Below are positions 27,218-49,380 of a DNA stretch of 64,000 nucleotides, piece by piece (the stretch's first letter is position 1; every line of letters begins with the position of its first letter). Origin of the DNA: Pontiella desulfatans (lineage in GTDB: Bacteria; Verrucomicrobiota; Kiritimatiellia; Kiritimatiellales; Pontiellaceae); contig NZ_CAAHFG010000001.1 of the NCBI RefSeq assembly GCF_900890425.1, positions 1,302,001 to 1,366,000 on the forward strand, written 5' to 3'. The position numbers and the translations under genes were made by a program. The notes beneath the pieces were generated by a model. That model was not told the DNA's origin and did not search any database. It saw only the letters and a program-made list of their open reading frames with translations.

Positions 27218-27345
27218 TTTCCCTCCCCGCAACGGAAGGTCCATTGCCCGTTCCCGGCGCGGAACCATCCTGCAAATGGGGGATGCCTGGGCATTGGAAA
27301 ACCTGTATGTTCCTTGCTTCACTGAATAGTTGAGGTTGGGGGCAG

Positions 27346-30087: not shown

Positions 30088-31911
30088 CTATCGCTTCTTC
30101 AGCTGCGGCGGGATGCGGCCGAAGTTAGGGTCGTAGACGGGGATGCCCATGCCCTGCGGGGTTTGCCATCCGGGTTTGGGTTTATGGGTCACGTAGGCAT
30201 AGTAGGGCGTTGCGGAAAGATCGTCGCCAATGAAGACCGGGGATAGATTGGTGAGGCCCTTCTTGAGCGAAACCGTGAAGGTGACTTCCTTGGCACCGGA
30301 CGGAATCGGTTTGGTTTCGTCCACATCGCCGATGCGCATGCGTGCCTGCTTGTAGTTGAAGGCCTTGCCGTAGGTTCCGTCGTTGATGCCTTTGTCGGCC
30401 TCGACCGGCCAGCGGCGCAGCGAGATTTCGTAGTTGCCATCGCGTTCGACCTCGATCGCCCAGTGCGAAATTTCTGCCACGTCGCCGTTTTTGATATGGT
30501 TTTGGTGCCATGGCGGCAGCTTGTCGATCAGCCAGTCGTGGGAGGAGAGCGAAACGATGGGCGCTTTTTCCGAACCGATCACCATGTAGCTAGTCTGGTC
30601 GTGTTCCCGCGAAACGTCGTTCCAGAATTTGTCGTATTCCGCGCGCAGCTTTTGGAACACTTCCGGGTGTTGGGCGGACAGGTCTTCGGCTTGCTTTGGA
30701 TCTTTTCTGACCTCGAACAGCTCCTTCCCGTTCACGAGTCGCCACTGGTCGGTCATGACGGAGCACTTGCGCCACTTGATAGGATCGACCACGCGTTGCG
30801 ATTCCACCACCAACGCACGGTCCGGCCAGCTCCGGCCTTTGGAAAAGAGCAGGGGGGCCAGGCTGGTTCCATCGAACTCGATCTTCGGTGCGGTCAGGCC
30901 GCACAGATCGATGAAGGTCGGCAGGATATCGATGTGGGCCGTCAGTTGTTCAATGGATTTGCCGGGCTCGATCTTGCCATCCGGCCAACGGATGATGAAC
31001 GGAACGCGGTGGCCACCTTCGTATTCCGAACCTTTCTTACCGCGCATGTTGCCGTCGTAGCCGCGGCCGTTCTGCAGGCCGCCGGCCGTTCCGTTGTCGG
31101 TCTGGAACACCAGGATGGTGTTTTCGGCAATGCCTTCGGCCTCCAGCAGTTTCATGAGCTTCGCCATGTTGTCGTCGATGTTGGTGATCATGCCGTAGAC
31201 CTCGGGGATCGAGACATTGGGATTGCCTTCATAGGGCTTGGAGTATTCCTCCGGGCAATAGTAGGGGCCGTGCGGGGCGTTGGTGGTGATGTAGGCGAAG
31301 AACGGTTTGTTTTTGTTGGTCTTGATGAACTTCATGCCTTCATCGAACCAGACATCGGTGCAGAAGCCCTCGAAACGCTGGTGCTTGCCGTTGACGATGT
31401 AGGTGTCGTCGAAATAGTCGTTGCCCCAATAGTCGGGTGCCTGGCCGACCCCGCCCGCCTGGTGGTAGACGCAGTGCTGGAAGCCGCGGTCTTCGGGCCG
31501 GAAGGGGTAGCAATCTCCGAGGTGCCATTTTCCGAAGATACCGGTTGAATATCCGTTGGCGCTGAAGACGTCGGCCATGGTGGTTTCGCGGCGGCGCAGC
31601 ATGCTGCGGCCCTGCACGGTGTGCCACACGCCGACGCGGTCGGAATAGCGGCCGGTCATCAGCGCCGATCGGGTCGGGGCGCAAGTGGGATCGACGTGGT
31701 AGTTATTGAGCAGCGTGCCCTGCGTGCGCAGTTTATCGATGTTCGGCGTTTTGATGGCCGGGTTGCCGGTGAACGCCAGGTCGCCATAGCCCTGGTCGTC
31801 GGTAATCACAATAATGACGTTGGGCTTTTTCGCCTTGTCGCCAAGTGCCGGTACGGTTGCCAAGGCTGTTGCCCCGGCCATGAAAAATCTACGGTTAACT
31901 TCCAGTCCCAT
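30088..31911 (-). CDS. Tat-exported arylsulfatase, formylglycine (Cys) type
   Basis: 607 residues from ATG 31911 (AAGGAGAACAGG upstream). The longer frame to 31986 lacks a site. The N-terminus [13 protein letters not shown] has a twin-arginine signal, so it is exported folded. The active-site set is complete: [27 protein letters not shown] with Cys77 for formylglycine, [16 protein letters not shown] and [11 protein letters not shown]-terminal accessory domain (from about residue 470) contains [19 protein letters not shown], as in the bacterial family with a sugar-binding-like tail. It is co-oriented with, and downstream of, the kinase/regulator pair, though a possible terminator lies between. 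Substrate unknown. Confidence 0.92.
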
Positions 31912-32020
31912 CCTGTTCTCCTTTTCCATCCATTTAAAGCGAACAGAGTAGCAGGCAATGGTTTGGAGGGCATCCCTCAAACACACGATGTTCGCAAATA
32001 CAGTCTATCCGTTCAGTGAA

Positions 32021-32057: not shown

Positions 32058-32723
32058 TTATTCATCAAGGGGGAAGAGGCCGAGGCGGTGGGCTTTGTTG
32101 ATGGCCGAGGGTGCGTTGCGGACGCCGAGCTTGTCGTAGATGTGGGTCACGTGGGTATCGACGGTCGTGTAGCTGATGCCGAGTTGGTCGGCGATCTCCT
32201 TTTTAACGAAGCCTTCCCCGAGCAGGGTCAGGATTTCGAGTTCGCGGGGGGTGAGGATCTGCTCCATTTCCCCCTTGGGCAGCCGGGTCTGCAGGGTGTC
32301 GAGGATGAAGCGGGCAACGCCGGTGTCGAGTGAGGCGCCGCCATCCATGGTGGAGCGGATGCCTTCGGTAATCTGGGCGAGCGTCGATGATTTGAGCAAA
32401 TAGCCTGAAGCGCCGCGCGAGATGGCGCGCAGCACGTCGGCCTCCTCGTCGGACTGGGTGAGGATCATGATCTTGGCGTCGGGCAGGGCGGATTTGAAGT
32501 AGGGCAGCGAATCCAGGCCGTCCATTCCGGGTAGGCGGAGGTCGAGCAGCACGAGGTCGGGCACCTTGCGCATCGACATGTCCTGCAGGCTGCGCAGCGC
32601 GATCTCGGATGTGCCGAATTGGCTGATCAGCTCAATATCTATTTCATCTTCGAGGGCGAGGTCGATTACTTCCCGGTATTCGGGATTGTCCTCGACCAGC
32701 ATGACGCGGATTTTCCGACTCAT
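32058..32723 (-). CDS. NarL/FixJ-type response regulator
   Basis: 221 residues. The receiver domain has acidic pocket EDN (residues 11-13), phosphorylation site Asp61 in VLLDLRLPGMDG, Thr/Ser in ILTQSDEEAD and Lys in YLLKSS. The C-terminal LuxR helix-turn-helix (LTPRELEILTLLGEGFVKKEIADQLGISYTTVDTHVTHIYDKLGV) binds DNA. The gene overlaps the upstream kinase by 4 bases (ATGA), so the two are translationally coupled and form a two-component pair. It is a paralogue of the regulator at 43103-43771; both begin with an identical VMLVEDNPEYR-like stretch. Likely targets are the surface-protein and sulfatase genes around it (inference). Confidence 0.9.
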   Translation of the reverse strand: MSRKIRVMLVEDNPEYREVIDLALEDEIDIELISQFGTSEIALRSLQDMSMRKVPDLVLLDLRLPGMDGLDSLPYFKSALPDAKIMILTQSDEEADVLRAISRGASGYLLKSSTLAQITEGIRSTMDGGASLDTGVARFILDTLQTRLPKGEMEQILTPRELEILTLLGEGFVKKEIADQLGISYTTVDTHVTHIYDKLGVRNAPSAINKAHRLGLFPLDE

Positions 32724-34678
32724 AAAAGGGCTCCAAGTTTGCCGTGTTTCACTATAAGGGATATTTTGGTTCCGCCGGTTTCGGAGGCTTCGTTTTTCAC
32801 CAAGGCCCCCAGCAGCCGCGCGCGACGTTTCAGCGAGGAAGGAACCCCGCCGTCGAGCCCGTGCCCGTTATCGGATATGGTCAGCTCGATTCCCGTATTC
32901 GATGCCGCTAGGTTGGCGTGGACTTCGGTGGCGCCGGAGTGGCGGATAATGTTGATAAGGCATTCCTTGTAGAAAAGGAAGAGGTCGATGCGTTTGCGGA
33001 GTTTGAGCCGCGACAGGAGTTCTTCGCCTTCGAACTCAAGGCGGTAGTCGAGGTCGGCCATGATGCGTGCGGAGGTCTTGCGCATGTCGTCGACCAGGTC
33101 GCCGTATAGATCTTTGGCTTCGAGCATGTTGGTGCAGTGGCGCGCGGCGGCGCCGGTACGCTCGGTGAGCGCCCGCATGCGCTGGAGCAGTTTGTCGAGC
33201 TTGGCCGGCGATTCCTTGGCGGCCTGGGCGAGGTCGCCGAGCAGGCCGATGGCGTGGATGTTGGCACCGAGCTCGTCGTGCAGGTCGGCGGCGATCCGCT
33301 CGCGGGTGCGGAAAATGGCGCGCTGGCGGATGATGCGGTCGACGAGGATGGTGATGACGGTGCCGATGGCCAGGAGCGCGGCCAGCCAGCCCGTGAGCAG
33401 CAGGGTGGTTTTCTGGCGGGTATAGCGGCGGGTCAGTTCGGCGGTGATCAAAGGCCGTTCTTTTTCCAGCTTGTGGCGGAGCGCCAGCTGGTTGAGCCAG
33501 TCGCGAATGGGCAGGATGTTGCCATACATGTTGCGCCCGTCGGTTAAATTGACCAGCGGGCGGTGGGGGTTGGGGCGGTCGAAATTGGGCTTAACGCTCT
33601 TGCCCAGCGCCACATTCCGCCCATTGGAAAAGAGTTCGATTTCGGAAAAGCCAAGCCGGGGCGGCGTGTCTCCATAGAGCGTGTTCGATGACGGCTCCAC
33701 CACGGAGAGGTGCACATAGCGGCAGGTTGTGTCCGGGATGTGCCACATCATGATGGAGCCAATGTCGTAGATGGTGTCGAAGTGCTGGTCGAGCAAAGGA
33801 ACCGCATCGGAAAAATCGGACACGTTGGCTCCGGCGATATGCAGCCTTTTCGGAATGCCGATATCCCCGGCGTAGGCTTGCGGCAGGGTGTCGCTTGCGC
33901 CGACGGCGTGGAGGTGGATGCGGGAGATCGGATGGCTGCTTTCCAGATCGAGGGTCAGGGCGGGGTGGAGGTTGGTGCTTGGCGGAGTCAAATAGGCAAT
34001 GCTCTGTTCGCCGTGTGCCGCATCCATGAGGTACGGGACAAATCCATCGACTACGAAATCCTTGTCCCAAGCTCCGGAACTATTCGGTTGGTCGGAGGAG
34101 CTGGCAACGGTTTTTTTCAGTGCCACGTTTTCCTCTCCGCTGAAGACGAGGATTTCCGAGAACTGGAAAACATACAGGTTGTCGAATGCGCGGGGGGTCA
34201 GGGTGTCCGATTCCACCCGAATCCACGAGGCGGCTATGCCGTTGCAGGGAGTTACAAACGGGGCCACGCCGGGATCCATGCTGCCATTGCACGCATATTC
34301 GGCAATGAGCGTCCCGTTGGTATCTGCTTTGGTTCCTGCAATCAACCGTAGTTCCGCGGGAAATGCATCGGCCTGGAACCCTTTGTCTACGTCTCTGCGA
34401 ATACAGGGAATCAGCATGACTTCATCGAGGGGAACCTCCTTGCCGAAATCGATCTGAATCCACTCGTGTTGATCCTGGCTACTATGGGCAATCGAACGGT
34501 ATCCAATGGCCCCAATGCCGCTGCCCAGTCCATAGTCGGCCAGATCCTCGAGTTGCGAATCGATGGCCGCCAGGCGTTTTTCCAGATCGCCCAGCGAATG
34601 GTCGGCAAGCGGGTTCGCCATGGCCGATGCGGCCAGCGCAAGATATCCGAGTGCCATCTGTATTCGAGAGATTCCCAT
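32720..34678 (-). CDS. Histidine kinase with periplasmic F5/8-type-C-like sensor
   Basis: 652 residues. A signal peptide (to about residue 21) precedes a long helix, then two discoidin-like lobes: about 50-190 (HEWIQIDFGKEVPLDEVML, ASWIRVESDTL, FQFSEILVFSG) and about 205-360 (DFVVDGFVPYLMD, LTLDLESSHPISRIHLHAV, RYVHLSVVEPS, LGFSEIELFSNGRNVALGK). A coiled helix and one membrane helix (TTLLLTGWLAALLAIGTVITI) follow. The HisKA_3 box RIAADLHDELGANIHAIG has His467 as phospho-acceptor, and the ATPase domain ends with ISDNGHGLDGG. Discoidin lobes usually bind glycans, so the kinase probably senses a sugar. The N-terminal domain match is by eye. It divergently faces the surface-protein array. Confidence 0.85.
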   Translation of the reverse strand: MGISRIQMALGYLALAASAMANPLADHSLGDLEKRLAAIDSQLEDLADYGLGSGIGAIGYRSIAHSSQDQHEWIQIDFGKEVPLDEVMLIPCIRRDVDKGFQADAFPAELRLIAGTKADTNGTLIAEYACNGSMDPGVAPFVTPCNGIAASWIRVESDTLTPRAFDNLYVFQFSEILVFSGEENVALKKTVASSSDQPNSSGAWDKDFVVDGFVPYLMDAAHGEQSIAYLTPPSTNLHPALTLDLESSHPISRIHLHAVGASDTLPQAYAGDIGIPKRLHIAGANVSDFSDAVPLLDQHFDTIYDIGSIMMWHIPDTTCRYVHLSVVEPSSNTLYGDTPPRLGFSEIELFSNGRNVALGKSVKPNFDRPNPHRPLVNLTDGRNMYGNILPIRDWLNQLALRHKLEKERPLITAELTRRYTRQKTTLLLTGWLAALLAIGTVITILVDRIIRQRAIFRTRERIAADLHDELGANIHAIGLLGDLAQAAKESPAKLDKLLQRMRALTERTGAAARHCTNMLEAKDLYGDLVDDMRKTSARIMADLDYRLEFEGEELLSRLKLRKRIDLFLFYKECLINIIRHSGATEVHANLAASNTGIELTISDNGHGLDGGVPSSLKRRARLLGALVKNEASETGGTKISLIVKHGKLGALL

Positions 34679-34761
34679 GCCTGCTTATACCATGAACGGG
34701 ATAGGGGGCGATACGCCTTGTTGCATTGGTTTTTCCATGTTTAAAGCCTATTCCAGGCACC

Positions 34762-34853
34762 GGAGTCCATCTATCCCGTGAACACAGGATGGGCAACCTT
34801 TCCGGGTTTGGTAGCTTCGCTTACGAATCGGGGAAGGCGAGTGCTTTCCAAAC
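34762..34853 (+). promoter_or_regulatory. Conserved leader element, copy A
   Basis: A hairpin (34773-34790, ATCCCGTG / CACAGGAT with one mismatch) ends in ATGGGCA. The core GGTAGCTTCGCTTACGAATCGGGGAAGGC (34810-34838, given here in two parts: GGTA N5, then GCTTACGAATCG and GGGAAGGC) follows. GTTTGG (34806-34811) can pair with CCAAAC (34848-34853) around it. It sits 31 bases upstream of the next gene's start. Confidence 0.5.
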
Positions 34854-34883
34854 TGGTAAACCCAACCGAAGCAGGAGGAATAG

Positions 34884-37172
34884 ATGAAAATAAGAAAAGC
34901 AGCATTAGCAATATGTATACCTTTGGCATTAGCCGCATCCAGTGGCGCGGCCGTTATAATTGACGATGATTTTTCGTCGGGAACCATCTCCCATAATGCA
35001 CGGTTTCGTATCAATCAAGCCGATGCGGGATGGTATCAGGACGTCACTTCATTGTGGAACATAACCAATGGCGTGCTGACCAATCCCGGCACGACTCCGG
35101 GGATTCCTGCCGAAGGCCCGGTTGGTCAAAGTGTTTTAACGTCCGGGCTGGCTGACGGTCTGGATAAGGTGATCGTTTCGTTCGACTATTCGGTCGGAGC
35201 AGGCAGCACGCTGTATTTTCATTTGCTCGGATTCACAACCAATGGGACGCCCAGTACGGATGAGCAGCTGGCCAATACCCAGCCCCAGAACGGTTCCATT
35301 CAAAACCAGGCGGAAACCGATTTTGGCGATATGAATATCCTCAACGGGGGCGATCCGAACGGTTCAGCCGGGAATGCTGTTTCGTTTGCGGCAACATCCG
35401 GCACCTACACGGCGACGTTCAGCCTGACCAACTATACCTGGTCGGCCGACGAAAGCCCCGGACTCACAGGCGACATTGCGGAAGTAAAGGACTTTGATTT
35501 GATTCTGGCCGCTTTCGCCTCCAACGTAACCTCGAACGATGGTGCCGGTGCGATTTCAATCTCCAATATTACGATCAGTGCCAAGACGTCGGCGGAGACG
35601 TCGGTGTCGGTTTCCCCCGACGATGAACTTTTGATGGTTCTGCTGCCCGGAGAAACGATCGTTACGGGATCGCTGGATGTTGCCTATATTTCCGCGACCA
35701 ATGTGGATATTGCGGTTTCTATTTCAGATGAATCGCACGCTGGTTCGTTCAGTGTGCTCTCCGCAACCCCGCAGACGCTGACGGGGCCGGCAACGCTTGA
35801 GATTGAATATGACAACACCACTCCCGGTTTGACGGATGGCGCGGCGGCAACCTGCCTGGTGACGGTTGCCTGGAACGAGGAGGGACTGCCCACAACCAAT
35901 AATATTGTTGTTCCGGTTCGGGCCCAGACCGGCTATGCAGCGAATGCGAACAATGGATTCATCGGCGCCGGAAACGGCATATCCTGGGGTGACCCGGATA
36001 ACTGGAGCCTGGACCGTGTTCCCGGAACGCTGGGAGCCGACCGGGCCCTCATTCAGATCGGCGGTATTGTTTGTAATGTGGACACCAACTTTACAGGGCC
36101 GTTTGGTTACAACGTCTGGATTCGCGTGGCTTCCGGAGTTTCCCCGGTGCTCAACATCGGTGCCGACCTGAAAAATGCCAATCAGATTCATGTTGGTCAG
36201 GCCACCGGCCAGTACGGCACCCTGAACCACACCGCGGGTGCCGTTGAAGTCGCTACGCTCACCGTCGCGCATGCCACGGGAACCGCTACGAATAATTCGG
36301 CCTACACGCAGACCGGCGGGTCGGTTGATGTGGATTCGCTTACGGTCAACCCGACCGGCGAGCTGAACCTGAACGGCGGAACCATGGATATTGCGACTAG
36401 CATTTCTATTCTGTCCAACGGCGTCATCAATGTGGACGGCGGCGCACTCACGTTCGATGTGGAGCCTGCCAACCGCACGGTGAACTACGGAGAGGGCCTG
36501 TTGAGAGTGAAGTCCGGCTCATTTACCACCCTGGCGGCAGCGGCCTCCGATGTGCTCACGTACCAGGCGCAGCTTGAAGTCAGCGGCGGTACTGTGACCC
36601 TGAACGGCCAGAACAAGCTGGCGAAGCTGACTGTGATTGGCGATGATGCGTCGATTTCAATCAATGCCTATAACCGTCGGCCCAGCAGCGCCAGGAGCCT
36701 GGTCGAATTCGAGTTGGGCAGCAACGGGGTTTCAACGGTTAACCTGACTGGCTGGGCGCACCTCGACATGACCGATATCGTTGTTGACGGTTCAAGCTAT
36801 ACCGGCGGAGGGACGAATATCACCTTGTTCAAGGGTGGAGACTTCCAGAACCTGTCGACCAATGTGGTTGTGCAAAACTTTGCCGGGGACTACGCGGCAA
36901 GCGTAACACAGAGTTTGGATACGGATACGGTTGAGCTGATCATCACGGTCGGCGGCCCGGATATCAGTCTGGATATGCCCTCCGGCGGCCCCGTAACGAT
37001 TTCGTGGCCGGTTGAAAACGGCAGCGCATACAACGTGATGACCAACGTCGATCTTGTGAACGGCACATGGGGCGATGCGGAATGGACTCCGTTCCTGGAT
37101 GGCGACGTGTATAAAGCCACCAACAGCATCGGCAGCGAGCCCCGGTTGTTCTACCGGCTGGAAAACAAGTAA
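34884..37172 (+). CDS. Modular secreted surface protein (modules A, C and beta-helix)
   Basis: 762 residues, AGGAGGAATAG before ATG 34884, signal peptide ending SSGAAV. Module A (about 25-235) starts VIIDDDFSSGTISH and has a YFHLLGF strand. Module C (about 240-350) has LPGETIVTGSLDVAYISAT and ISDESHAGSFSVLSATPQTL. Then comes a beta-helix-like section (about 355-690) opening WGDPDNWSLDRVPGTLGADRA with repeated G-x-L-N-x-x-G-G-T turns. The C-terminus (ISWPVENGSAYNVMTNVDL...FYRLENK) differs from the tail shared by its paralogues. It is probably exported and surface-exposed. Thr/Asn/Gly-rich composition suggests adhesion or glycan binding. A terminator-like hairpin follows. Confidence 0.6.
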   Translation: MKIRKAALAICIPLALAASSGAAVIIDDDFSSGTISHNARFRINQADAGWYQDVTSLWNITNGVLTNPGTTPGIPAEGPVGQSVLTSGLADGLDKVIVSFDYSVGAGSTLYFHLLGFTTNGTPSTDEQLANTQPQNGSIQNQAETDFGDMNILNGGDPNGSAGNAVSFAATSGTYTATFSLTNYTWSADESPGLTGDIAEVKDFDLILAAFASNVTSNDGAGAISISNITISAKTSAETSVSVSPDDELLMVLLPGETIVTGSLDVAYISATNVDIAVSISDESHAGSFSVLSATPQTLTGPATLEIEYDNTTPGLTDGAAATCLVTVAWNEEGLPTTNNIVVPVRAQTGYAANANNGFIGAGNGISWGDPDNWSLDRVPGTLGADRALIQIGGIVCNVDTNFTGPFGYNVWIRVASGVSPVLNIGADLKNANQIHVGQATGQYGTLNHTAGAVEVATLTVAHATGTATNNSAYTQTGGSVDVDSLTVNPTGELNLNGGTMDIATSISILSNGVINVDGGALTFDVEPANRTVNYGEGLLRVKSGSFTTLAAAASDVLTYQAQLEVSGGTVTLNGQNKLAKLTVIGDDASISINAYNRRPSSARSLVEFELGSNGVSTVNLTGWAHLDMTDIVVDGSSYTGGGTNITLFKGGDFQNLSTNVVVQNFAGDYAASVTQSLDTDTVELIITVGGPDISLDMPSGGPVTISWPVENGSAYNVMTNVDLVNGTWGDAEWTPFLDGDVYKATNSIGSEPRLFYRLENK

Positions 37173-37195
37173 GATCCCAAAGCAGTGAAACGATG

Positions 37196-37230
37196 CGTGC
37201 CCGTACGATCCCGTGCGGGCACGTTTTCGT
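37196..37230 (+). terminator. Rho-independent terminator
   Basis: CGTGCCCG (37196-37203) pairs with CGGGCACG (37216-37223), then TTTTCGTTT. It lies 24 bases after the stop codon of the upstream surface protein. Confidence 0.7.
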
Positions 37231-37242
37231 TTCCGGAACAGA

Positions 37243-37339
37243 CCCATCCCGTGAACACGGGATGGGCAAAACTCCCCAGTTTGGTAAATTAGCTTATAAA
37301 TCGGGAAAGGTAGCGGGTTTTTCCCTCGTGAAAGCAAAC
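37243..37339 (+). promoter_or_regulatory. Conserved leader element, copy B
   Basis: A perfect hairpin CCCATCCCGTG-AA-CACGGGATGGG (37243-37266, including the ATGGG of the shared ATGGGCA) is followed by the core GGTA N5 GCTTATAAATCG GGAAAGGT (37283-37311). GTTTG (37279-37283) can pair with CAAAC (37335-37339). The downstream gene starts at 37360. Confidence 0.5.
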
Positions 37340-37359
37340 CCAAGCAGGAGGAAGATGGG

Positions 37360-39762
37360 ATGAGGAAGCCATTGGTAGTTTCAACCGCGTTCGCGCTGTT
37401 CTGCGCGGCAGCCGCCCAGTCGGCCACGATCCAGGAAAACACGGTTTTTCCGGAGATGGATATCATCGCCAGTCAGGAGATTGGTGCGAGTTCCATCGGA
37501 ATCCGTGACATCCCCAATCCGATCCACGCCATTTGCGGCCAGACCTTCACGATAACCAATGCAACGACATTGAGGGCCATCACGCTGAAGGCTAATTCAA
37601 GCAAAACCTTTAGTTCGGGGGATGACATGGTCGAATTGTGGATTGGTGCCGATGCCGATCCCAACCCGACCAATTTCGTTGCGGGAGCAACAAGCTGGCC
37701 GACGAGCTTTGACCTGAATGGAGTCACGCTGACGGCCGGAAAATATTACACAATCAACCTGGACTCCGATATTTCCCTGCCGGCTGGCGATTATGCGTTC
37801 CAGCTCAAATGGGAAAATACCGGCGCAGCGCATCAAATGTTTTTCGCGCGGGCGAACGGCGACGGCGACTATGATGCCGGGGGATTGGTTTATGCCCAAA
37901 CCACGGATGGAAGCTTTGTTGATTTCCCATTGGATACATCAGTGTCCTTTGGCCTTGATATGGTGTTCGGGCTGCACTCGGCGGTTGTCGGGACGGTTCC
38001 CACCTTTTCGGTTGATCCGGCATCTGTGGATATGCTTCTCGTTCCGCCAAACGATCAGGTCACGGGAACCGTTGCCGTGGTCTATACGGCAGACTCCACC
38101 ATGGACATTTCCATGTCGGTTTCTGCGGAATCCCATCCGGGATCGTTCAGTTTGTTGTCCGCCAATCCGCAAACCCTGACAGAGCCCTCTCCGTCAAACA
38201 CCATCCTGGAAATTGAATTCGACAACACGGTTTCCAATCTGGTGGCGGGAGAAAGCGCAACCGGGCTGATAACCATAGCCTGGAGTGAAACCGGTAGTGG
38301 AACAACCAACGAAACGGTTGTCCCGGTGAGTGCTTCCACCGGCTTTGCACCCAATGCAAACAACACATTCATGCCATTGGTCGGAACCTGGGGCGATCCT
38401 GCGAATTGGAGTCTGGGTCGTGTGCCCGGTACTGCCGGGGCCGATAGGGGTATCATTCAGGGGGCTCAGGGCCGGGTCTGCAACGTGGAAACCAACTTCT
38501 CGGCACCCTTCGGCTACAGGGTTTGGGTCCGCACAACGGGCGGTACGCCTAACACCGTCAATGTGGGGGCCGACCTGAAGGGTAGCGCCGATATCTCCGT
38601 CGGGCAGGCCAGCGGCCAATACGGCGTGCTTAATCAGACCGCCGGCGATGTGGATACCGATGCCCTCATAATCGGCGACCCGGACGGAACGGCACCGAGC
38701 AATTCCTACTACAACCTGTCCGGTGGAACGCTGACTTTAGACGGAGATGCAACCCTGTATTCCACTGGGGAGATGGATATCACGGGAGGAACGATGGACA
38801 TCAGTGGTGACATCAATATTGGTGGAACCGGCGTGCTTAACATTGATGGAGGCGCGCTCAGTCAGGCCGGCAATGGCACGATTGATGGCTTGGGAACCCT
38901 TAAACTGCAGTCGGGTTCCTTCTCTACGGGTAATAACACAAGTGGTGGGCAGACCTTTGAAGGCAATGTGGAGATCAGCGGTGGTGCCTTCAGCATGCTG
39001 AGCCAGACTCTCTGCTATGACCCTGCTTCGATTACCGTGAAGGGCGATGAAGCTTCCATTACCATGCGGCATATCCAAACGACAGATACCTACGGTAATT
39101 TTGGTCTAACGCTGAACTATGATCTCGATGAGACCGGCGTCAGCACGATTAACATGAGCGAGTGGATGTTCCTTCAAAAAACGAAGATTAATGTGGACGG
39201 CTCTGCCTATACCGGTGGATCGCAAACGATCAATCTGATTGATGGAAAAAGCATTAACGGTCTGGCCGCCACATCCAATATTACCGTAACCGGATTTTCC
39301 GGGAACTATACGGCCAGTGTGGAGCAGGATACCGGCTCCGGGAACGTCATCCTGACGATCTCCGCCGGGCCCTATGAAGATTGGACTGCCGAGTATAATC
39401 TGTCCGGCACCAATGCCTTGGCGAGCGCCGATCCGGATGGCGACCTGCTCAGCAACCTGTACGAATATGGACTAGGCGGCGACCCGACCAATGGTTCCGT
39501 CCTCGGAATGGATTCGAGCATGGTGTCTGGTTCCGGCTACATCGACTATGTCCATGTCCGCCGCGTGGAAGCCACCAACGATATCAGCTATGAGCTCGCG
39601 CTGAATCAAAACCTGGTTGTCGGAAGCTGGACGACCAACTCCGGCTACTCCGTGGTTGGATATGGCCCGGTCGTCGGTGACTTCGATACGGTGACCAATC
39701 GCATCATTACCACCGGAAAGACGGCGGAGTTCATCGATCTGGTTATCGAAGAGCTGCCATAG
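37360..39762 (+). CDS. Modular secreted surface protein (modules B, C, beta-helix, F)
   Basis: 800 residues, AGGAGGAAG upstream, signal peptide to about residue 22 (AQSA). Module B (about 35-215) contains CGQTFTITNATTLRAITLKA, DDMVELWIGAD and LPAGDYAFQLKWENTG; the last gene of the window carries the same module. Module C (about 220-330) has NDQVTGTVAVVYTAD and SHPGSFSLLSANPQTL. A beta-helix-like section starts WGDPANWSLGRVPGTAGADRG. Module F (about 680-800) starts DPDGDLLSNLYEYGLGGDPTNG and ends TVTNRIITTGKTAEFIDLVI, shared with three other genes. No catalytic motif. Probably a surface or extracellular glycan-binding or adhesive protein. Confidence 0.6.
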   Translation: MRKPLVVSTAFALFCAAAAQSATIQENTVFPEMDIIASQEIGASSIGIRDIPNPIHAICGQTFTITNATTLRAITLKANSSKTFSSGDDMVELWIGADADPNPTNFVAGATSWPTSFDLNGVTLTAGKYYTINLDSDISLPAGDYAFQLKWENTGAAHQMFFARANGDGDYDAGGLVYAQTTDGSFVDFPLDTSVSFGLDMVFGLHSAVVGTVPTFSVDPASVDMLLVPPNDQVTGTVAVVYTADSTMDISMSVSAESHPGSFSLLSANPQTLTEPSPSNTILEIEFDNTVSNLVAGESATGLITIAWSETGSGTTNETVVPVSASTGFAPNANNTFMPLVGTWGDPANWSLGRVPGTAGADRGIIQGAQGRVCNVETNFSAPFGYRVWVRTTGGTPNTVNVGADLKGSADISVGQASGQYGVLNQTAGDVDTDALIIGDPDGTAPSNSYYNLSGGTLTLDGDATLYSTGEMDITGGTMDISGDINIGGTGVLNIDGGALSQAGNGTIDGLGTLKLQSGSFSTGNNTSGGQTFEGNVEISGGAFSMLSQTLCYDPASITVKGDEASITMRHIQTTDTYGNFGLTLNYDLDETGVSTINMSEWMFLQKTKINVDGSAYTGGSQTINLIDGKSINGLAATSNITVTGFSGNYTASVEQDTGSGNVILTISAGPYEDWTAEYNLSGTNALASADPDGDLLSNLYEYGLGGDPTNGSVLGMDSSMVSGSGYIDYVHVRRVEATNDISYELALNQNLVVGSWTTNSGYSVVGYGPVVGDFDTVTNRIITTGKTAEFIDLVIEELP

Positions 39763-39787
39763 GCTTTGATTTTCAATGGATTTAGAC

Positions 39788-39815
39788 GGGGGCTGGAAAG
39801 CCCCCTTGTTTTTAT
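39788..39815 (+). terminator. Rho-independent terminator
   Basis: GGGGGCT-GGAA-AGCCCCC (39788-39805) followed by TTGTTTTTAT. Only about 25 bases separate it from the next start codon, so the next gene needs a promoter within or before the hairpin, or read-through. Confidence 0.85.
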
Positions 39816-39839
39816 ATATAAGAAACAAGAGGAATGATT

Positions 39840-42800
39840 ATGGTTCGGAAATTCGGTTCTGCTTTGGGGCTGTGCCTGATGGTTGCCGCATCCGGCCATG
39901 CGGTGAACTTTACCCGCGACTCCGGCGATACCAACTGGTCGAACCTGGATCAATGGAACGACAACAGTTCCGGCAGTTACCAGAATGCGACCAATTTCCC
40001 GACATCCGGCGACACGGTACTACTGAATGCCGGCAAGACGGTGACGGTAGATACCCATGCAACCATCAATACCATGGTCGCGCCGAATGCGACATCGGAC
40101 GCCGTTGTGGAATTTGTTTCAGGAGGGGGGCTGACGGCGAACAGTTTTCATGTCGGCAATTCCTCGCAGGCAGGCAATGGAACCGTGAACCATTTTGCCG
40201 GTTCGTTGGCGGCCACGACGCTCTCGCTCCGTCCAACCGGCACCAAGACGGGAACGTACAACTTGTACGGCGGAACCGTTGCCGCAACCAATCTTGAGGT
40301 CGGTAATTCAGCAGTGGGCGCAACCGGAACGGCTACCTTTGTTCAGTCCGGCGGAACGGTGACCACGCCCGATGTGGATATTGGAGGTTCCGGACCGGGA
40401 ACGTATGAAATCTCCGGCGGCAGCCTGGATGCAACCGGCACGTTCGACATTCTCACCAACGGCCGGTTCATGGTGGTCGGCACCTCGGCTGTCGTCACGG
40501 CCACGGCGCTCGACACACAACCGGGCAGTACAATGGCTTTCAAACTGGATGCTTCTGGCATCGGCACCATGCAGGTAAGTGGAAGTGTGGATCTCGCAAA
40601 TGCGTCGATTGCAGTGGATGGAGCACCCTATTGGGGTGGCGCGACGAACTTTACCCTGCTGGATGCAGGGATACTGGCTTCCATGGCGGGTTCGGTTTCA
40701 ATCACGGGACTTGCGAACGCTTCCGTCTCGCAAGTGGGCGACAGCGTGGTGCTGAATGTGGTGGAGTCAAAAACCACGTCCGTTTTTGAAAACGCGACCG
40801 GCGACGGCCTGTGGGGAACGGCGGGCAATTGGTCGCCAGTTGGTGTGCCGTCAGGGGCTGTGCTGGCACGCATCGGAAACGGACTGGCCGCCACCTTTTC
40901 CACCAATCAGCCTGTGGTTGACGGCATCATTATCGGCAGCAACGCCACGCTGGTGGTTCAGGCAGGTGTCGCAGTCCCCGAACTGCGGTTTGAACCGCTC
41001 AGCTCCCTAAAGCTCGTCCTTTCCTCGGTCGGTCTTTCTCCATTCACGGTTTCCTCCGGTGTTGTGATGGATTCATCCAACCCGATCTGTATTGATGGCG
41101 CTAACTACGAAGGGCTCGATTGCTATTTCCCTTTGATTCTTGCGGACAACCTACCCAGCAGTTTGACTAACCAGGTTTCATTTGCGGGTTTCGGGATTAG
41201 GGAACCAGCCGTAGTGGTTGAGGACGATGGCCTGTGGCTGCGCGTGATTGCCATGCCGTCGCTCTCCGAGCGGCTCTGTTCGCTGGTTCCGGCGAGCCGG
41301 GTGGCGACGGATTGGTCCAACACCACCTTTTCGGTTGCGCGGAAATATGATCCCTCCGGCTCGGCCTGGAGCGTTTCGTTCGAAGAAGCGCATGTGCTGG
41401 ATACGACCCTCATTCAGACTGCTGCGCATCCCAACCAGTCGTGGGAATTGCGCACCGGAATCGGGGGGTTCATCTATTCGCTCCGGACGGGTGCGCTGGG
41501 CGAAACCGTGCCGCCATCGTGGCGTAGCACACAGGATACATCGCCCTGGAACGACGAGGTCTGGCAGGGTGTGGCCGTCGGGCCGCTGAACAATCCGTCT
41601 GAAGGGAGCCCCTATTTCATGCACCAGTCCGGGGTCTACTTGAAGGATCCGGTTCTCACCAAACCGTTTTATTCCCCGCAGGTCGCTTCGCACCTCGATA
41701 TGGAAAACCGCAGCTTCACCACGGTCAACTGGACGCCGCAGGCGCATGTGAACATCTATGTGGATGAAAACCCGACCAACGACTGGAAATCCTATCTGCT
41801 TTGCTATACGCGCTACCGCGATATGGGGCAGGGGGTGATCGAAGTGATGATGGGCTACTACAACTATGGCCCCGATCATCTCGATTGGTTCAACATGCCC
41901 TGGGGCGGCGTGCGGCGCACCAGCACCGAGTATGCGTTCACCTCCGAACCCGGCGGAACCACGTGGCGCATTCCTATGACCAACGGTTGGGGCAGCAGCG
42001 AGGACTTTGACGAAACCGGCGGATGGCAGGGCTATAGCAATACCTCAAACGGTGTCACCCCGGCGATGGCGTTTGTGTTCGGGCAGGATACGACCCCCAA
42101 TCTTCCCGGGCAGAAATCCGACAGCTGGTTCCGCACCGGTTATGCCGGAGGAAAGGCTCAGTATAAACCGACCGAAACCGACTGGCGCAACTATCTGGTA
42201 TCAACCGCCGTCCGCCGCTACAACCTTCCGCAGGGCAACGGGCTGTGGTCGACGCACTTCTATGTGCTTGGCGACGACATGCAGGATCTCTCGGATCGCA
42301 TCCAGGCGCGCGGAGTGATCGGTGCCGACCTCGCCGCCTTCGACTACACGGAAGCCGGCACACCACTGGTGGCCTACAGCGTCTCCGGTAGCGGCGATAC
42401 ATTCCAATGCGTGGAAGACGGCGGCTCTCCCGACTTTTTCCTCTATGCGCATCCGGTGAGCAACAGCTTCCCGATCTTCGAGGTCATCGAGGACGACGGG
42501 GCGCGCTACCTGACCTGGAACCCCTATGCCAACGGCATCGTCAAACCCTACGACGGCACCATGGCCGGCCTGCGCCTGCTCGGGTTCACCATGCCCGTCG
42601 CCGGAACGAACTATACCTATGCGGCGCTGTCCGGACTGCTTCCTTCGGCAAACTACCTGCCCGACGGCAAAACGCTCTTTGCCCGCACCGCCACTCCGTT
42701 TGAAACGTGGCGCGTTCAGCACTTTGGCAAGACGGATGATTCCGGCGAAGGCGCGAGCACAGCCAACCCTGACAGCGATTCTGCCAACAACCTTGCTGAG

Positions 42801-43106
42801 TATGCGTTGGGCGGCGATCCGCTGGATGCGGGCGATACAGGGTATGTTCCATCGGCCGGAATCCTGAATGAAAACGGAACAAACTGGATTGAGTATGTTT
42901 ATCCCCGCCGCATCGGATCCGAAGCGGAACTTGATTACGCTTTGGAAACCTGTTTCAACCTGATTTCCAACGATTGGAAGATCGGTAGCACAATAGAATT
43001 TCCTATCACCGGAAGCATTGATGCTGACTATGAAGCCGTTACGAACCGGATCGATACAACCGGAAAGACAAATGAATTCATTCGGTTGAAAGTCGATGCG
43101 TTCTAA
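39840..43106 (+). CDS. Modular secreted protein with beta-helix, unknown domain E and tail F
   Basis: 1088 residues. ATG 39840 is chosen because AAGAGG lies 7 bases before it, against 1 base for ATG 39834. The signal peptide ends SGHAV. Residues about 25-310 are a beta-helix-like passenger (NFTRDSGDTNWSNLDQWND opens it). A linker leads to domain E (about 474-950): LSERLCSLVPASR, YFMHQSGVYLKDP, FNMPWGGVRRTSTEY, FYVLGDDMQDL and FLYAHPVSNSFPIFEV. The same domain is in the giant sulfatase fusion at 51348-56762. Tail F (about 955-1088) has NNLAEYALGGDPLDAGDTGYVPS and ends TNRIDTTGKTNEFIRLKV. Domain E is long and conserved enough to be an enzyme, but I recognise no family. Its end overlaps the convergent regulator gene by 4 bases. 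Confidence 0.6.
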   Translation: MVRKFGSALGLCLMVAASGHAVNFTRDSGDTNWSNLDQWNDNSSGSYQNATNFPTSGDTVLLNAGKTVTVDTHATINTMVAPNATSDAVVEFVSGGGLTANSFHVGNSSQAGNGTVNHFAGSLAATTLSLRPTGTKTGTYNLYGGTVAATNLEVGNSAVGATGTATFVQSGGTVTTPDVDIGGSGPGTYEISGGSLDATGTFDILTNGRFMVVGTSAVVTATALDTQPGSTMAFKLDASGIGTMQVSGSVDLANASIAVDGAPYWGGATNFTLLDAGILASMAGSVSITGLANASVSQVGDSVVLNVVESKTTSVFENATGDGLWGTAGNWSPVGVPSGAVLARIGNGLAATFSTNQPVVDGIIIGSNATLVVQAGVAVPELRFEPLSSLKLVLSSVGLSPFTVSSGVVMDSSNPICIDGANYEGLDCYFPLILADNLPSSLTNQVSFAGFGIREPAVVVEDDGLWLRVIAMPSLSERLCSLVPASRVATDWSNTTFSVARKYDPSGSAWSVSFEEAHVLDTTLIQTAAHPNQSWELRTGIGGFIYSLRTGALGETVPPSWRSTQDTSPWNDEVWQGVAVGPLNNPSEGSPYFMHQSGVYLKDPVLTKPFYSPQVASHLDMENRSFTTVNWTPQAHVNIYVDENPTNDWKSYLLCYTRYRDMGQGVIEVMMGYYNYGPDHLDWFNMPWGGVRRTSTEYAFTSEPGGTTWRIPMTNGWGSSEDFDETGGWQGYSNTSNGVTPAMAFVFGQDTTPNLPGQKSDSWFRTGYAGGKAQYKPTETDWRNYLVSTAVRRYNLPQGNGLWSTHFYVLGDDMQDLSDRIQARGVIGADLAAFDYTEAGTPLVAYSVSGSGDTFQCVEDGGSPDFFLYAHPVSNSFPIFEVIEDDGARYLTWNPYANGIVKPYDGTMAGLRLLGFTMPVAGTNYTYAALSGLLPSANYLPDGKTLFARTATPFETWRVQHFGKTDDSGEGASTANPDSDSANNLAEYALGGDPLDAGDTGYVPSAGILNENGTNWIEYVYPRRIGSEAELDYALETCFNLISNDWKIGSTIEFPITGSIDADYEAVTNRIDTTGKTNEFIRLKVDAF

Positions 43107-43771
43107 TTGTTTCCGGAGGGGAAAAATCCGAGCGCGTGGGCGCGGTGTACGGCCGCCGGAGCGTTGGGCACGTTGAGTTTTTCGAAGATATGGGCAATGT
43201 GGTTGTCGGCCGTTTTTGCACTGATCGAAAGATGCTGGCTTATTTGTTTTCTCGCGAAGCCTTGGCTGATGAGGGTAAGAATCTCCATTTCCCGTTCGGA
43301 GAGTGTTGTGGATTCCTTCGGGAGCGCTTCCCCTTTTCTGATGCTTCTAAGAACATACTTCGCCATTTTTGGGTCTAACGAGGCTCCGCCTTCCATGACC
43401 AGTTGGATACCGGACTTTATCTCTTGAACCGTGGCCGATTTCAGCAGATATCCGGCGGCTCCTCGCTGGATGGCGGTCAGGATGTCGGTTTCACTATGGG
43501 ATTGGGTGAGGACAATGGTTTTCGTGGCGGGAATCAAACGGGAGAATTCCGTCAGCGCATCGAGACCGGATAGGCCGGGGAGGTTAAGGTCGAGCAGGAT
43601 GACATCGGGAACGTTCCGGGTGTTCATGTTCTGGAGGCTTCGCAGGGCCAGTTCCGCGGTTCCGAACTGGTTGATCAACTCCAGAACAGAATCATCCTGA
43701 AACGCAAATTGGATAACGTGTCGATATTCTGGATTGTCTTCCACCAGCATGAGTTTGATTTTTTGGGTCAT
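43103..43771 (-). CDS. NarL/FixJ-type response regulator, second copy
   Basis: 222 residues. Receiver domain with EDN at 11-13, Asp61 in VILLDLNLPGLSG, LTQSHSETD and YLLKSA; LuxR-type helix-turn-helix at the C-terminus (LSEREMEILTLISQGFARKQISQHLSISAKTADNHIAHIFEKLNV). It is a paralogue of the regulator at 32058-32723 with the same length and the same closing H-x-A-x-x-FP sequence. It overlaps the kinase upstream by 4 bases. Its stop codon also overlaps that of the convergent surface-protein gene. Likely controls some of the adjacent glycan-related genes (inference). Confidence 0.9.
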   Translation of the reverse strand: MTQKIKLMLVEDNPEYRHVIQFAFQDDSVLELINQFGTAELALRSLQNMNTRNVPDVILLDLNLPGLSGLDALTEFSRLIPATKTIVLTQSHSETDILTAIQRGAAGYLLKSATVQEIKSGIQLVMEGGASLDPKMAKYVLRSIRKGEALPKESTTLSEREMEILTLISQGFARKQISQHLSISAKTADNHIAHIFEKLNVPNAPAAVHRAHALGFFPSGNN

Positions 43772-45765
43772 GATACATCCTGTGTTTTTCCGAAGCGCAG
43801 TTTTTTTGGTGTTTTCAGCTTTAATGAAATAGAGGTTCCGCCGGCTTCGGATGATGCAACCGAAACCGTTGCGCCGAGCAGTTTGGCGCGGCGTTGGAGC
43901 GAGGCGGGGATGGCGGCGGTTTCGTGGGCGCCCATTCCGCGCCCGTTGTCGCGGATCTCCAGGTTAATTCGACTCTCGTCGGCATGGAGTGCGATTTGAA
44001 CCTCGGTGGCATCGGCATGGCGGTTAATATTAATCAGGCTTTCCTTAAAAAAGAGAAACAGATCGGCTCGGTTTTGTGGACTAAGGGTTTGCAGAATCTC
44101 TTCGCCGGTTATGGCTACCGAATAGGCATGCTGGGCAATAATGCGCCGGGCGGTCCGTTTCATGTCGGCCGGCAGGTTTTCGTGGTTCTCTTTGGCGGTT
44201 TGCATTTCGATGCAGTAGCGGGCGGCCTCGCCTGTTCGGATGGCCAGCGCATTGATTTCCTCTACCGTTTGGGCAAGCTTTTCCGGCGAATGCAGTACGT
44301 CCTTGGCATGCGACCCGAGGAAGCCGATGGCATGCAGGTTGGCCCCGAGCTCGTCGTGCAGGTCGGCGGCAAAGCGTTCTTTGAGGCGGGCGGCCTGGCG
44401 CATTCGCAGGATCTTATCAATGAGGATGGTGAACGCGATGCCGACTGCAAGGAGGGCCGCCAGCAAGCGAAGCCGTCTCATTTTGGTTTGCTGGCGCACA
44501 TAGCGCTCATTCAGTTCGGCCGTCACAAGGGGGAGTTCGTTTTCCAGTTTTTCGCGCCGGGCGAGTTCGTTAAGCCAGTCACGAATAGGGAGAATCGAGC
44601 CATAAAGGTTGTGCCCGTCGGTCAGCGACGAGAAGGAGCGGTCAGGGTTGCGTAGCGCAAAGTTGGCTTTTACGGGGGCTCCAAGCGCCACGTTCCGGGC
44701 GTTTGAAAGGAGTTCGATTTCGGCAAAGCCAAAACGCTTGACAGCGATCTCTCCTTCAAGTTGCGTGAAAGGATCGATGGCCGTTAAACGAACGTGCCGG
44801 CAGGTTGCTTCGGGAAAGTGGCGCATGAGAATGGGGCCTGTTTCATATATGGATGTACAGTGGATTTCAATGAGTTGAACTGCGTCCGAAAAATCAGCGG
44901 TATCGGCTCCTTCAACCAGCAAGTGACGCGGAACGCCGAGGTCGCTGGAAAAGGATTGCGGAACCGTATCGCTTTGTTCAACGGTATGCAGATGGATTCC
45001 ATGCAAAGGAAAGGCTGTGCCGAGATCAATCTCCAGTGTCGCCGGATTCGTGGAGGAGACCGTGCTAATCATCGCGATGCTCTGTTCGCCCTGGGCAGCA
45101 TCCATGAGGTAGGGTAAAAAACCGTCCACCAGATAGATGTCTTTTCGCGAGGCGTTGGGCGTGAGGGGCGGGACGGTTACCGGGCGTTTCAATGCAACAT
45201 TTTCCTGGCCACTGAAGACCATGATTTCGGCCATTTCTAAATCGTAGCGGTTATCGAATAGGCGCGCGGAGAGTTTCGTGGCTTCGAACCGTATCCAGGA
45301 AGCGGTTGTCCCGGGGCAGTCAATGATAAACGGGGCAATGCCCGGTTGCGGGTAGTCGCCTTCCCTGAATGTGGCCAGCACGGAGCCGTTGGTGTCGGAG
45401 TTTGTGCCTGTAATCAATCGAAAATCGCGCGGGAACCCATCGGCCTGGAATCCCGTCTTTGCGTTTCGCCAGATGGTCGGGACCAACACCACTTGATCCA
45501 CCCGGGTTTCTTGGCCCAATTCAATTTGAATCCATTCCGTCTGGTTCGGGGTGTCGTATGCCTGTGAGCGGTATCCGATGGCGCCGGCACCGCTGCGCAG
45601 ACTTAAGGAGGCGAGTTGGCTTAATTCGGCTTCTATGGCGTCGCGTCTTGTTTCCAGTTGTGCAACCGATTGTGTTGCGAGTGGAGCCTCATCGGAAAAG
45701 CTTCGAGCGGGGAAGGCGGCTCCGGTCAGCAATAGTGCGATGCAGATTGATCCAGTTAGATTCAT
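43768..45765 (-). CDS. Histidine kinase with F5/8-type-C-like sensor, second copy
   Basis: 665 residues with the same plan as the kinase at 32720-34678: signal peptide, helical stretch (ETRRDAIEAELSQLASLSLRSG), two discoidin-like lobes (TEWIQIELGQETRVDQVVLVP to MAEIMVFSGQENVALKRPV; DIYLVDGFLPYLMDAAQGEQ to GFAEIELLSNARNVALG), one membrane helix (LLAALLAVGIAFTILIDKIL), HisKA_3 box RFAADLHDELGANLHAIGFLG with His470, and an ATPase domain with RDNGRGMGAHE. The lobes differ most between the two copies, so they may recognise different sugars or linkages. It is divergent from the surface protein at 46102. Confidence 0.85.
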   Translation of the reverse strand: MNLTGSICIALLLTGAAFPARSFSDEAPLATQSVAQLETRRDAIEAELSQLASLSLRSGAGAIGYRSQAYDTPNQTEWIQIELGQETRVDQVVLVPTIWRNAKTGFQADGFPRDFRLITGTNSDTNGSVLATFREGDYPQPGIAPFIIDCPGTTASWIRFEATKLSARLFDNRYDLEMAEIMVFSGQENVALKRPVTVPPLTPNASRKDIYLVDGFLPYLMDAAQGEQSIAMISTVSSTNPATLEIDLGTAFPLHGIHLHTVEQSDTVPQSFSSDLGVPRHLLVEGADTADFSDAVQLIEIHCTSIYETGPILMRHFPEATCRHVRLTAIDPFTQLEGEIAVKRFGFAEIELLSNARNVALGAPVKANFALRNPDRSFSSLTDGHNLYGSILPIRDWLNELARREKLENELPLVTAELNERYVRQQTKMRRLRLLAALLAVGIAFTILIDKILRMRQAARLKERFAADLHDELGANLHAIGFLGSHAKDVLHSPEKLAQTVEEINALAIRTGEAARYCIEMQTAKENHENLPADMKRTARRIIAQHAYSVAITGEEILQTLSPQNRADLFLFFKESLININRHADATEVQIALHADESRINLEIRDNGRGMGAHETAAIPASLQRRAKLLGATVSVASSEAGGTSISLKLKTPKKLRFGKTQDVS

Positions 45766-46101
45766 CCCGATTAAGTTCCATCATTTACCTCCGGACTACA
45801 AGTTGTTTTCCCAATCCCACCGGGTTTCGGGGGCGTGTGCAACCGCGCGGTTTTGGACGAGCGGGTGGGTGGACATCGGCCGCGAAGGGCCTCTTTCGGG
45901 GCTCATTTCCCGTTGCCGAAGAATCTATAACGTTATAAGACGACGCCTACGTCGCGCTCCCGTCATCCACCAATCCATTCGAAACCGGCGAGAATGCAGG
46001 AGGGGGGTAAAACCCCCATAGACGGATGGATTTGTTCCGGTACCATGGCTTACGAATCGTAAAAGGCTAAACCGGAAAACCTAAACGAAAAGGAGATAAA
46101 G
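45766..46101. other. Divergent intergenic region (336 bp) with leader element C
   Basis: Separates the kinase (minus strand) from the surface-protein gene (plus strand), so it must hold promoters for both. No reliable promoter boxes were found by eye. The right third carries the leader element annotated at 46002-46077. The rest holds no convincing gene. Confidence 0.5.
46002..46077 (+). promoter_or_regulatory. Conserved leader element, copy C
   Basis: A hairpin GGGGG-TAAAA-CCCCC (46003-46017) is followed by ATAGACGG, then the core GGTA N5 GCTTACGAATCG TAAAAGGC (46039-46067). TTCCGGT (46035-46041) pairs perfectly with ACCGGAA (46071-46077). Copy A and B use different bases for the same outer stem. 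Confidence 0.5.
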
Positions 46102-48436: not shown

Positions 48437-48459
48437 TTGCTAAAAGGAGAAGTATGGAA

Positions 48460-49245
48460 ATGAAATACATAACAGCCGGGCTTTGCCTGGTTTTGGGGGC
48501 GGGGGCGTATGCTGACGCCGTTCTATTGAGTGATAGTTTTGACTCCAGTACGGTGAGTGCCGATAACGGTTTGCGCTATGATGAAATGGGCACTTCCGGT
48601 GCAGTCGGTTCCGGGGCGTGGCAGGCCGCGAGCGGCACCAAGTGGGGGATCGGCGGCGGAAGCGTTACGAATGCCAGCGGCGGAACGAATGCACAGAATG
48701 AGGGTGCATTGGGTCGTCTGGTTGACATTAGTTCTCTGACGGATTCCAGCCTGAATAAGATTAATTTGGCGGTTAATTTTGCGACGGCCAACCAATCTGA
48801 AACCTTGTATGTTCATCTCCGGGGATATGTGGCGCATGCAACGCCTGCAGCTTCGCGGCAGTTTGGAAATGTTGGTGCTACAAATGGCAACGTTTGGGAG
48901 CAGCAGTATAGTTCCGGTACAACCGTAAGCATCTATAATTTAAATACGGGCGTCGAGGTTTTAGATTCACCCCAAGCGGGTGCCGGTACAGCAGTCCAGT
49001 TGTCATCCGGCACATCGGGAGCACAGTCCGTCGATTTAACGTTTGATATGTCCGATTATGCAGTAAGCGATATTACCGGATATGATTATCTTGGCGTTTT
49101 CATCTCGCGTAATTCAGCAGGAGTTACTCCGATGGCTACGATTAATGACATCACGGTAACGGCGATTCCGGAACCGGCTACGTTGGGACTGATTGCCATG
49201 GTCGGCACTTCAATCCTATTCGTGCGCCGTCGGTTGGTGATTTAG
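48460..49245 (+). CDS. PEP-CTERM protein consisting of module A
   Basis: 261 residues. ATG 48460 has better spacing to AAGGAGA than ATG 48454. A signal peptide ends GAYADAV. The body is one copy of module A (VLLSDSFDSSTVSADNGLRYD, NFATANQSETLYVHLRGY, GATNGNVWEQ, YDYLGVFISRNSAG). The C-terminus is a textbook PEP-CTERM signal: IPEPATL, a hydrophobic helix (LGLIAMVGTSILFV) and RRRL. Exosortase cleaves such tails and the protein is then delivered to the surface or matrix; no exosortase gene lies in this window. It is the only array gene with this tail. A strong terminator follows. Confidence 0.85.
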   Translation: MKYITAGLCLVLGAGAYADAVLLSDSFDSSTVSADNGLRYDEMGTSGAVGSGAWQAASGTKWGIGGGSVTNASGGTNAQNEGALGRLVDISSLTDSSLNKINLAVNFATANQSETLYVHLRGYVAHATPAASRQFGNVGATNGNVWEQQYSSGTTVSIYNLNTGVEVLDSPQAGAGTAVQLSSGTSGAQSVDLTFDMSDYAVSDITGYDYLGVFISRNSAGVTPMATINDITVTAIPEPATLGLIAMVGTSILFVRRRLVI

Positions 49246-49358: not shown

Positions 49359-49380
49359 GGGGGAAAACCCCCATGGGCAG
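49359..49380 (+). promoter_or_regulatory. Hairpin plus ATGGGCA, partial leader element D
   Basis: GGGGG-AAAA-CCCCC (49359-49372) followed directly by ATGGGCAG. This hairpin is nearly the same as in copy C and the ATGGGCA as in copies A and B. The GCTTAYRAATCG core is not found before the sulfatase start at 49481, so this is only a partial match. Confidence 0.4.

Follow-up and report, generated by a model that had tools for sequence, protein, structure and literature searches.

Pontiella desulfatans F1 has 521 sulfatases in 8.6 Mb, and Pontiella-like sulfatase-rich bacteria hold about 500 sulfatase genes (PMC6388578); in the open-access literature we found almost nothing on how sulfatase genes are switched on. 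The window analysed here, a stretch of 64,000 bases (bases 1,302,001-1,366,000 of contig 1, in a genome of 8,658,305 bases and 6 contigs), contains three sulfatase-domain proteins, a GH29 fucosidase and a BD-FAE esterase together with two similar kinase/regulator pairs, K1/R1 and K2/R2, and raises the question of what these pairs sense and which genes each of them controls. The first-pass annotation of this DNA had proposed a duplicated glycan-sensing system with two ligand specificities. The main result of our analysis is a 26-bp operator, gnncATCCtnnAAAcnngGGATAggC, which lies between the kinase and its divergent gene and also before surface-protein, TonB-receptor, sulfatase and fucosidase genes.

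Kinase/regulator pairs and surrounding genes

27346-29742: secreted-protein gene, behind the operator at 27263
30088-31986, minus strand: sulfatase, real start probably 31911
32058-32723, minus strand: R1, NarL/LuxR-type response regulator, overlapping K1 by 4 bases
32720-34678, minus strand: K1, sensor kinase with HisKA_3 and HATPase_c
34884-37172, plus strand: secreted modular surface protein, divergent partner of K1
37360-39762, plus strand: secreted modular surface protein with its own operator
39834-43106, plus strand: secreted modular surface protein, no operator site of its own found
43103-43771, minus strand: R2, response regulator, paralogue of R1 (53% identical), overlapping K2 by 4 bases
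43768-45765, minus strand: K2, sensor kinase, paralogue of K1 (50% identical)
46102-48396, plus strand: secreted surface protein, divergent partner of K2
48454-49245, plus strand: small PEP-CTERM protein adjoining the K2 target
49481-51322, plus strand: sulfatase, behind the second K2-type operator
51348-56762, plus strand: large secreted protein with a sulfatase domain
56892-57752, plus strand: BD-FAE-type esterase, first gene behind the operator at 56837, real start probably further in
59187-60989, plus strand: GH29 alpha-L-fucosidase (E 1e-63), in the gene row led by the BD-FAE esterase

Both kinases are HPK7/DesK-like two-component kinases by their HisKA_3, HATPase_c and conserved histidine, with HisKA_3 scoring above the Pfam cut-off in K1 and below it in K2, and HATPase_c above it in K2 and below it in K1. 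R1 and R2 each combine Response_reg with a GerE (LuxR) helix-turn-helix domain (E 1e-17 to 1e-20) and are NarL/FixJ response regulators. K1 begins with a signal peptide (residues 1-22) and a helix (23-46), followed by lobe 1 (about 53-181), lobe 2 (about 182-352), a third partial repeat or linker (353-425), a transmembrane segment (about 426-449), HisKA_3 with an invariant histidine (H467) and the HATPase domain. One hydrophobic helix was found after the signal peptide in both K1 and K2. The annotated layout of signal peptide, two lobes (their fold being predicted), one membrane helix, HisKA_3 core and 4-base overlaps was borne out, as was the surface-protein array, with genes 34884, 37360, 39834 and 46102 lying between and beside the pairs.

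The lobes had also been described as the most divergent part of the kinases, which the comparison contradicted. Identity between K1 and K2 was even along their length (51% in lobe 1, 48% in lobe 2, 50% in HisKA_3 and 50% in HATPase), and over 54 kinases the lobes (mean pairwise identity 0.51 and 0.47) were about as conserved as the transmitter (0.54 and 0.51). R1 and R2 were 58% identical in the REC domain and 48.5% in the HTH.

The 37360-39762 product carries a C-terminal domain of about 130 residues (residues ~660-800) that occurs at about 90 places in the P. desulfatans genome; none of the Pfam and NCBIfam models matched it, and it may be a sorting or anchoring domain. PEP-CTERM proteins resembling the 48454-49245 product were present in several other kinase loci.

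Distribution and descent of the family

Ten close kinase copies were found in the P. desulfatans genome, K1 and K2 included, with the others 41-57% identical to K1, along with further, more remote copies. The annotation of two paralogous pairs was misleading in this respect, as they belong to a larger set. A scan of 84,980 species genomes with an alignment of the own-genome copies gave 78 loci, in Pontiellaceae, Opitutae, Akkermansiaceae, other Verrucomicrobiota, and Rhodopirellula and relatives, whose kinases matched over nearly their full length, sensor included. Full-length relatives in Kiritimatiellota, Verrucomicrobiota and Planctomycetota were 47-64% identical. The spread was patchy: at E 1e-40, 5 of 144 Verrucomicrobiota genomes were positive, no match was obtained in three of the four further genomes from the genus, and carrier genomes held from 1 to about 16 close copies. 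In 81 of 88 cases the kinase gene was followed by the regulator gene, and in 67 of 79 the nearest upstream gene of at least 200 amino acids was divergent from the kinase. The more remote copies in the P. desulfatans genome (L032-L037) have the same layout and regulators of their own; they are 19-30% identical to K1 and make up additional branches of the family.

A tree built from 88 kinases joined K1 to its orthologues in three further Pontiellaceae (support 96) and placed K2 elsewhere; the ten own-genome copies required at least 6 label changes. From these tree positions and the scattering of the ten copies over the genome, K1/R1 and K2/R2 are old paralogues that lie close together by chance, and the local duplication assumed earlier is contradicted.

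Traces of mobile elements were observed at some loci. In L031 (10764-13280) the regulator gene appears split into a receiver part, a 490-aa ORF and an HTH part, as after insertion of a mobile element. A 447-aa ORF with identical ends recurs beside kinases (L026:6809-8152, L029:4479-5822, L030:4343-5686 and 11995-13338) and may be the reverse strand of a transposon; in L026 it occupies the expected place of the divergent target gene.

A 26-bp operator upstream of the kinases

Counting of K-mers in the 300 bases upstream of the kinases recovered gapped words such as ACCCT-N9-GGGTG in 15 sequences and in none of the shuffles. Expectation-maximisation on 78 non-redundant upstream regions, started with no prior model, gave the 26-bp operator with an information content of 19.5 bits, compared with 10.5-11.3 bits in shuffled sets. 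Sixty of the 78 upstream regions scored above 10 bits (0-3 in shuffled sets), and although both strands could be searched, the best 55 matches all had one orientation. A palindromic motif model was dropped, as the oriented model scored better. No convincing site was found in 18 of the 78 kinase upstream regions, most Planctomycete members among them.

When the scan was extended to whole loci (1.41 Mb), 117 sites exceeded 16 bits, against 2 in shuffled DNA, and many of them preceded sulfatase, GH29, TonB-receptor, esterase and surface-protein genes distant from the kinase. Most matches to a strict pattern in the own genome fell near kinase loci. Strict pattern matches numbered 44 in five kinase-bearing genomes (reversed control 8) and 7 in 15 relatives with no or only remote copies (reversed control 3); four of these relatives are in the same genus, and two carry remote family members. 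The following sites were found in the window.

27263-27288, plus strand: K1-type operator before 27346-29742; -10-like TATGTT 17 bp on
31968-31993, plus strand: site resembling the operator, located between R1 and the sulfatase and oriented opposite to what is usual for the latter
34769-34794, plus strand: K1-type operator ATCTATCCCGTGAACACAGGATGGGC in the divergent intergenic region between K1 and 34884; -10-like TAGCTT 17 bp on, towards 34884
37242-37267, plus strand: K1-type operator ACCCATCCCGTGAACACGGGATGGGC before the surface-protein gene 37360; -10-like TAAATT 17 bp on
45998-46023, plus strand: K2-type operator AGGAGGGGGGTAAAACCCCCATAGAC in the intergenic region between K2 and 46102; -10-like TACCAT 17 bp on
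49359-49378, plus strand: second K2-type operator GGGGGAAAACCCCCATGGGC, about 100 bp before the sulfatase gene 49481; a clear -10 is missing at the normal distance
56837-56862, plus strand: K1-type operator before the gene row with BD-FAE and GH29; -10-like TAGTCT 17 bp on

The main operator model found no site upstream of K2 (0.8 bits). The K2-type operator was first spotted by eye and then tested genome-wide, where the pattern had two matches in 8.66 Mb, both beside K2, and the control had none. K1/R1 and K2/R2 appear to have separate operator addresses. A generic palindrome search in the other upstream regions lacking a site gave nothing convincing.

Promoter position and target genes

In 94 of 122 sites, the distance between the motif start and the start of a TAnnnT element was 43 or 44 bp, which puts the element 17-18 bp after the operator; this element had played no part in building the operator model. 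The operator covers the -35 position and is centred near -42, as is typical of class II activators, with the -10 at normal spacing and the transcription start being predicted. The lux box of LuxR-type class II activators is centred at -42.5. On the mirror side the element was present in 32 sites, and some operators may act on the kinase gene as well. The arrangement suggests that the bound regulator activates transcription.

A gene start lay within 250 bp ahead of 80 of 113 sites, at a median distance of 93 bp. TonB receptors were enriched among these operator targets (14 of 80 vs 9 of 515, P 6.5e-8), while sulfatase, GHL15, GH95 and GH141 genes showed no enrichment among direct targets over other flanking genes. 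Operator-bearing promoters of Pontiellaceae have another element in common downstream of the -10, approximately AATCGGGRAAGGC, which was observed in the window at ~34820-34840, 37295-37310 and 46050-46070 and also in L024, L038, L045 and L110; it is perhaps located in the 5' leader.

Co-variation of operator and regulator

Columns co-varying with the operator were ranked for 36 non-redundant pairs over 770 columns of regulator plus kinase. Six of the eight recognition-helix positions (185-192) were among the top 30 columns (P 5.5e-8). At residue 191, the 50 pairs that have T at operator position 21 all had His, and the four pairs that have another base there, and so a changed operator arm, had Phe or Tyr. 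High scores were also observed in the kinase transmitter and in columns of the first helix of the receiver, as a joint separation of contact and DNA specificity would produce, with shared ancestry explaining part of them. The mean score was 5.4 in sensor columns vs 12.0 in the transmitter. Between paralogues, the parts that change in step with the DNA site are the recognition helix and the region where kinase and regulator touch; the sensor does not follow it. These computations give good support both to the operator itself and to the view that the linked regulator uses it.

Glycan genes around the kinases

In a clustering of about 1,000 flanking proteins, 56 loci had sulfatases, 26 had GH29 fucosidases and 20 had TonB receptors, whose Plug domain was detected; the flanks also contained GH141-like, GH95, BD-FAE esterase, GHL15 and GH43 proteins. 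Linkage to glycan genes in other genomes, on which the glycan reading of the annotation depended, was found. GH29 alpha-L-fucosidases occurred 17 times near the kinases at 37 loci, vs 2.4 expected from their density in the same genomes (P 8.5e-10), and 18 sulfatases were found in 14 genomes outside Pontiellaceae vs 6.5 expected, this expectation being an upper bound (P 1.4e-4). Sulfatases in the own genome were left out of the enrichment test, since about 500 copies in 8.66 Mb already amount to one per 17 kb. Themes other than fucose are plausible too, since other kinase copies adjoin GH28, GH115 or GH97 genes and some carriers have at most one strong GH29. What can safely be stated is that the family is linked to glycan genes, with a bias towards fucosidases.

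Predicted fold of the sensor lobes

AlphaFold2 models of K1 (mean pLDDT 85 for the whole kinase and 82 for the sensor alone) showed an N-terminal helix, two jelly rolls and a helix that runs without a break into the transmitter. Searches with the full-length kinase by Foldseek and VIA gave mostly transmitter matches, and the sensor was therefore folded alone. Lobe 1 then matched fucolectin, CBM32, chitosan-binding and fucose-binding modules (Z up to 11.2, 1.9 Å over 102 residues), and lobe 2 matched CBM32 and galactose oxidase domains (Z up to 9.9, 3.0 Å over 120 residues). Pfam discoidin matched lobe 1 only, above the cut-off in K2 only, and the fold of lobe 2 was recognised through structure prediction. 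The galactose-binding-like fold anticipated by the annotation is thus predicted for both lobes, and their best PDB matches were nearly all CBM32, fucolectins or related F5/8C folds. Compared with these modules (VIA Z ~9-11, 2-4 Å, 100-120 residues), which share the jelly roll of both lobes, K1 and K2 differ in that the lobes stand in tandem as part of a histidine kinase, are accompanied by a third partial repeat and lack the F-type lectin motif. This fucose motif (H-x24-R-x-D-x4-R/K) was absent in 87 of 88 kinases, and in the single kinase containing it the motif was outside the lobe core.

Fold and gene context together suggest that the K1 and K2 lobes bind glycans. The same fold type occurs in protein-binding domains, with neuropilin and DDR1 among the matches, and so the fold alone is no proof of a glycan ligand. 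That sensor and transmitter are conserved to the same degree is easier to reconcile with a single class of ligand common to all members, or with a protein partner, than with many different glycans. A fucan ligand would fit the fucosidase enrichment and the GH29 gene in the cluster of the window.

Discussion

We consider it likely that each pair is a local glycan-responsive activator of one glycan gene cluster, with a cognate operator and insulated among its paralogues. The family, which occurs in sulfatase-rich bacteria, most likely senses extracellular sugar polymers and switches on neighboring genes for glycan capture and degradation. In the proposed mechanism, the kinase would present its two carbohydrate-binding-type lobes in the periplasm, where an oligosaccharide from a sulfated, probably often fucose-containing polysaccharide may bind and change the state of the DesK-like transmitter. 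The NarL-type regulator encoded by the overlapping gene would then be phosphorylated and bind the 26-bp inverted repeat centred near -42, replacing the -35 element, and would activate the divergent gene and nearby surface-protein, TonB-receptor, sulfatase and fucosidase genes. With operator variants of their own, the paralogues in one genome would apparently be insulated from each other.

The signal itself leaves some room for another reading, in which operator and regulation are the same, what the lobes detect comes from the envelope or from a protein (a partner protein, the state of the surface layer or the cell's own exopolymer) instead of nutrient glycans, and surface-protein display is the main output. 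Conservation of the sensor at the level of the transmitter over three phyla would be in keeping with this, as would the fold type's capacity to bind proteins and the direct targets, which are mainly surface proteins and TonB receptors and not sulfatases or hydrolases. However, TonB receptors are uptake proteins, the nearest bacterial folds to the lobes are carbohydrate-binding modules, and fucosidases and sulfatases are enriched around the kinases, and we regard an envelope or protein signal as unlikely.

Two further explanations concern the operator and the origin of the pairs. Palindromes resembling the operator are used by LacI- and CRP-like regulators, and the inverted repeat could belong to such a regulator controlling the same clusters by chance; this is very improbable given that the operator variants follow the recognition helix of the linked regulator, that the site is rare in related genomes without close kinase copies and that the K2-specific variant occurs only beside K2. 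The position of two pairs of about 50% identity within 14 kb would suit a recent local duplication in which fast-evolving lobes acquired two ligand specificities, but the even identity along the proteins, the separate placement of K2 from K1 and its Pontiellaceae orthologues, and the ten scattered close copies make such an origin hardly credible.

In its proposed role as a local glycan-responsive activator, each pair resembles the Bacteroidetes hybrid two-component systems (HTCS) while being built differently, a likeness that the annotation had drawn and that holds. Both are local, with one system per glycan locus, a periplasmic sensor and many paralogues per genome, and the pairs would likewise control outer-membrane uptake and degradation genes. 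HTCS are single hybrid polypeptides with Reg_prop/Y_Y_Y sensors and AraC-type output, whereas the pairs described here are separate genes with a 4-base overlap, discoidin/CBM32-like lobes and NarL-type (GerE) output; a Pfam search of K1, K2, R1 and R2 gave no Reg_prop/Y_Y_Y or AraC-type match. The system acts like an HTCS but is not one. DesK/DesR (HPK7 with a NarL-type regulator) shares the NarL-type partner and the fold and sequence class of the transmitter, for which DesK was the best PDB match by sequence and by fold. DesK has a multi-pass membrane sensor for lipid state, whereas K1 and K2 have one membrane helix and a large periplasmic sensor. LuxR-type class II activators also use an inverted repeat over the -35 position, 17-18 bp from the -10, but in R1 and R2 the output domain follows a receiver, and the operator has another sequence that varies by paralogue.

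We found no description of the discoidin-sensor kinase architecture in the open-access literature. The nearest prior mention there is a remark on Pontiella agarivorans, in which PF07730 kinases and PF00072 regulators were noted near sulfatases and glycoside hydrolases (PMC10880615).

It is possible, and we put it forward tentatively, that the family is a general regulator class for sulfated-glycan clusters of Planctomycetota/Verrucomicrobiota-type bacteria. Up to about 16 insulated pairs per genome would then act in parallel, with near-identical glycan sensors and operators of their own, such that the address and not the sensor diversifies, and fucose-containing glycans would be the common signal. 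A readable operator with a promoter position makes the regulation of sulfatase clusters testable and predicts which genes belong to which pair, and the natural variants of regulator and operator form a set from which a recognition code could be derived.
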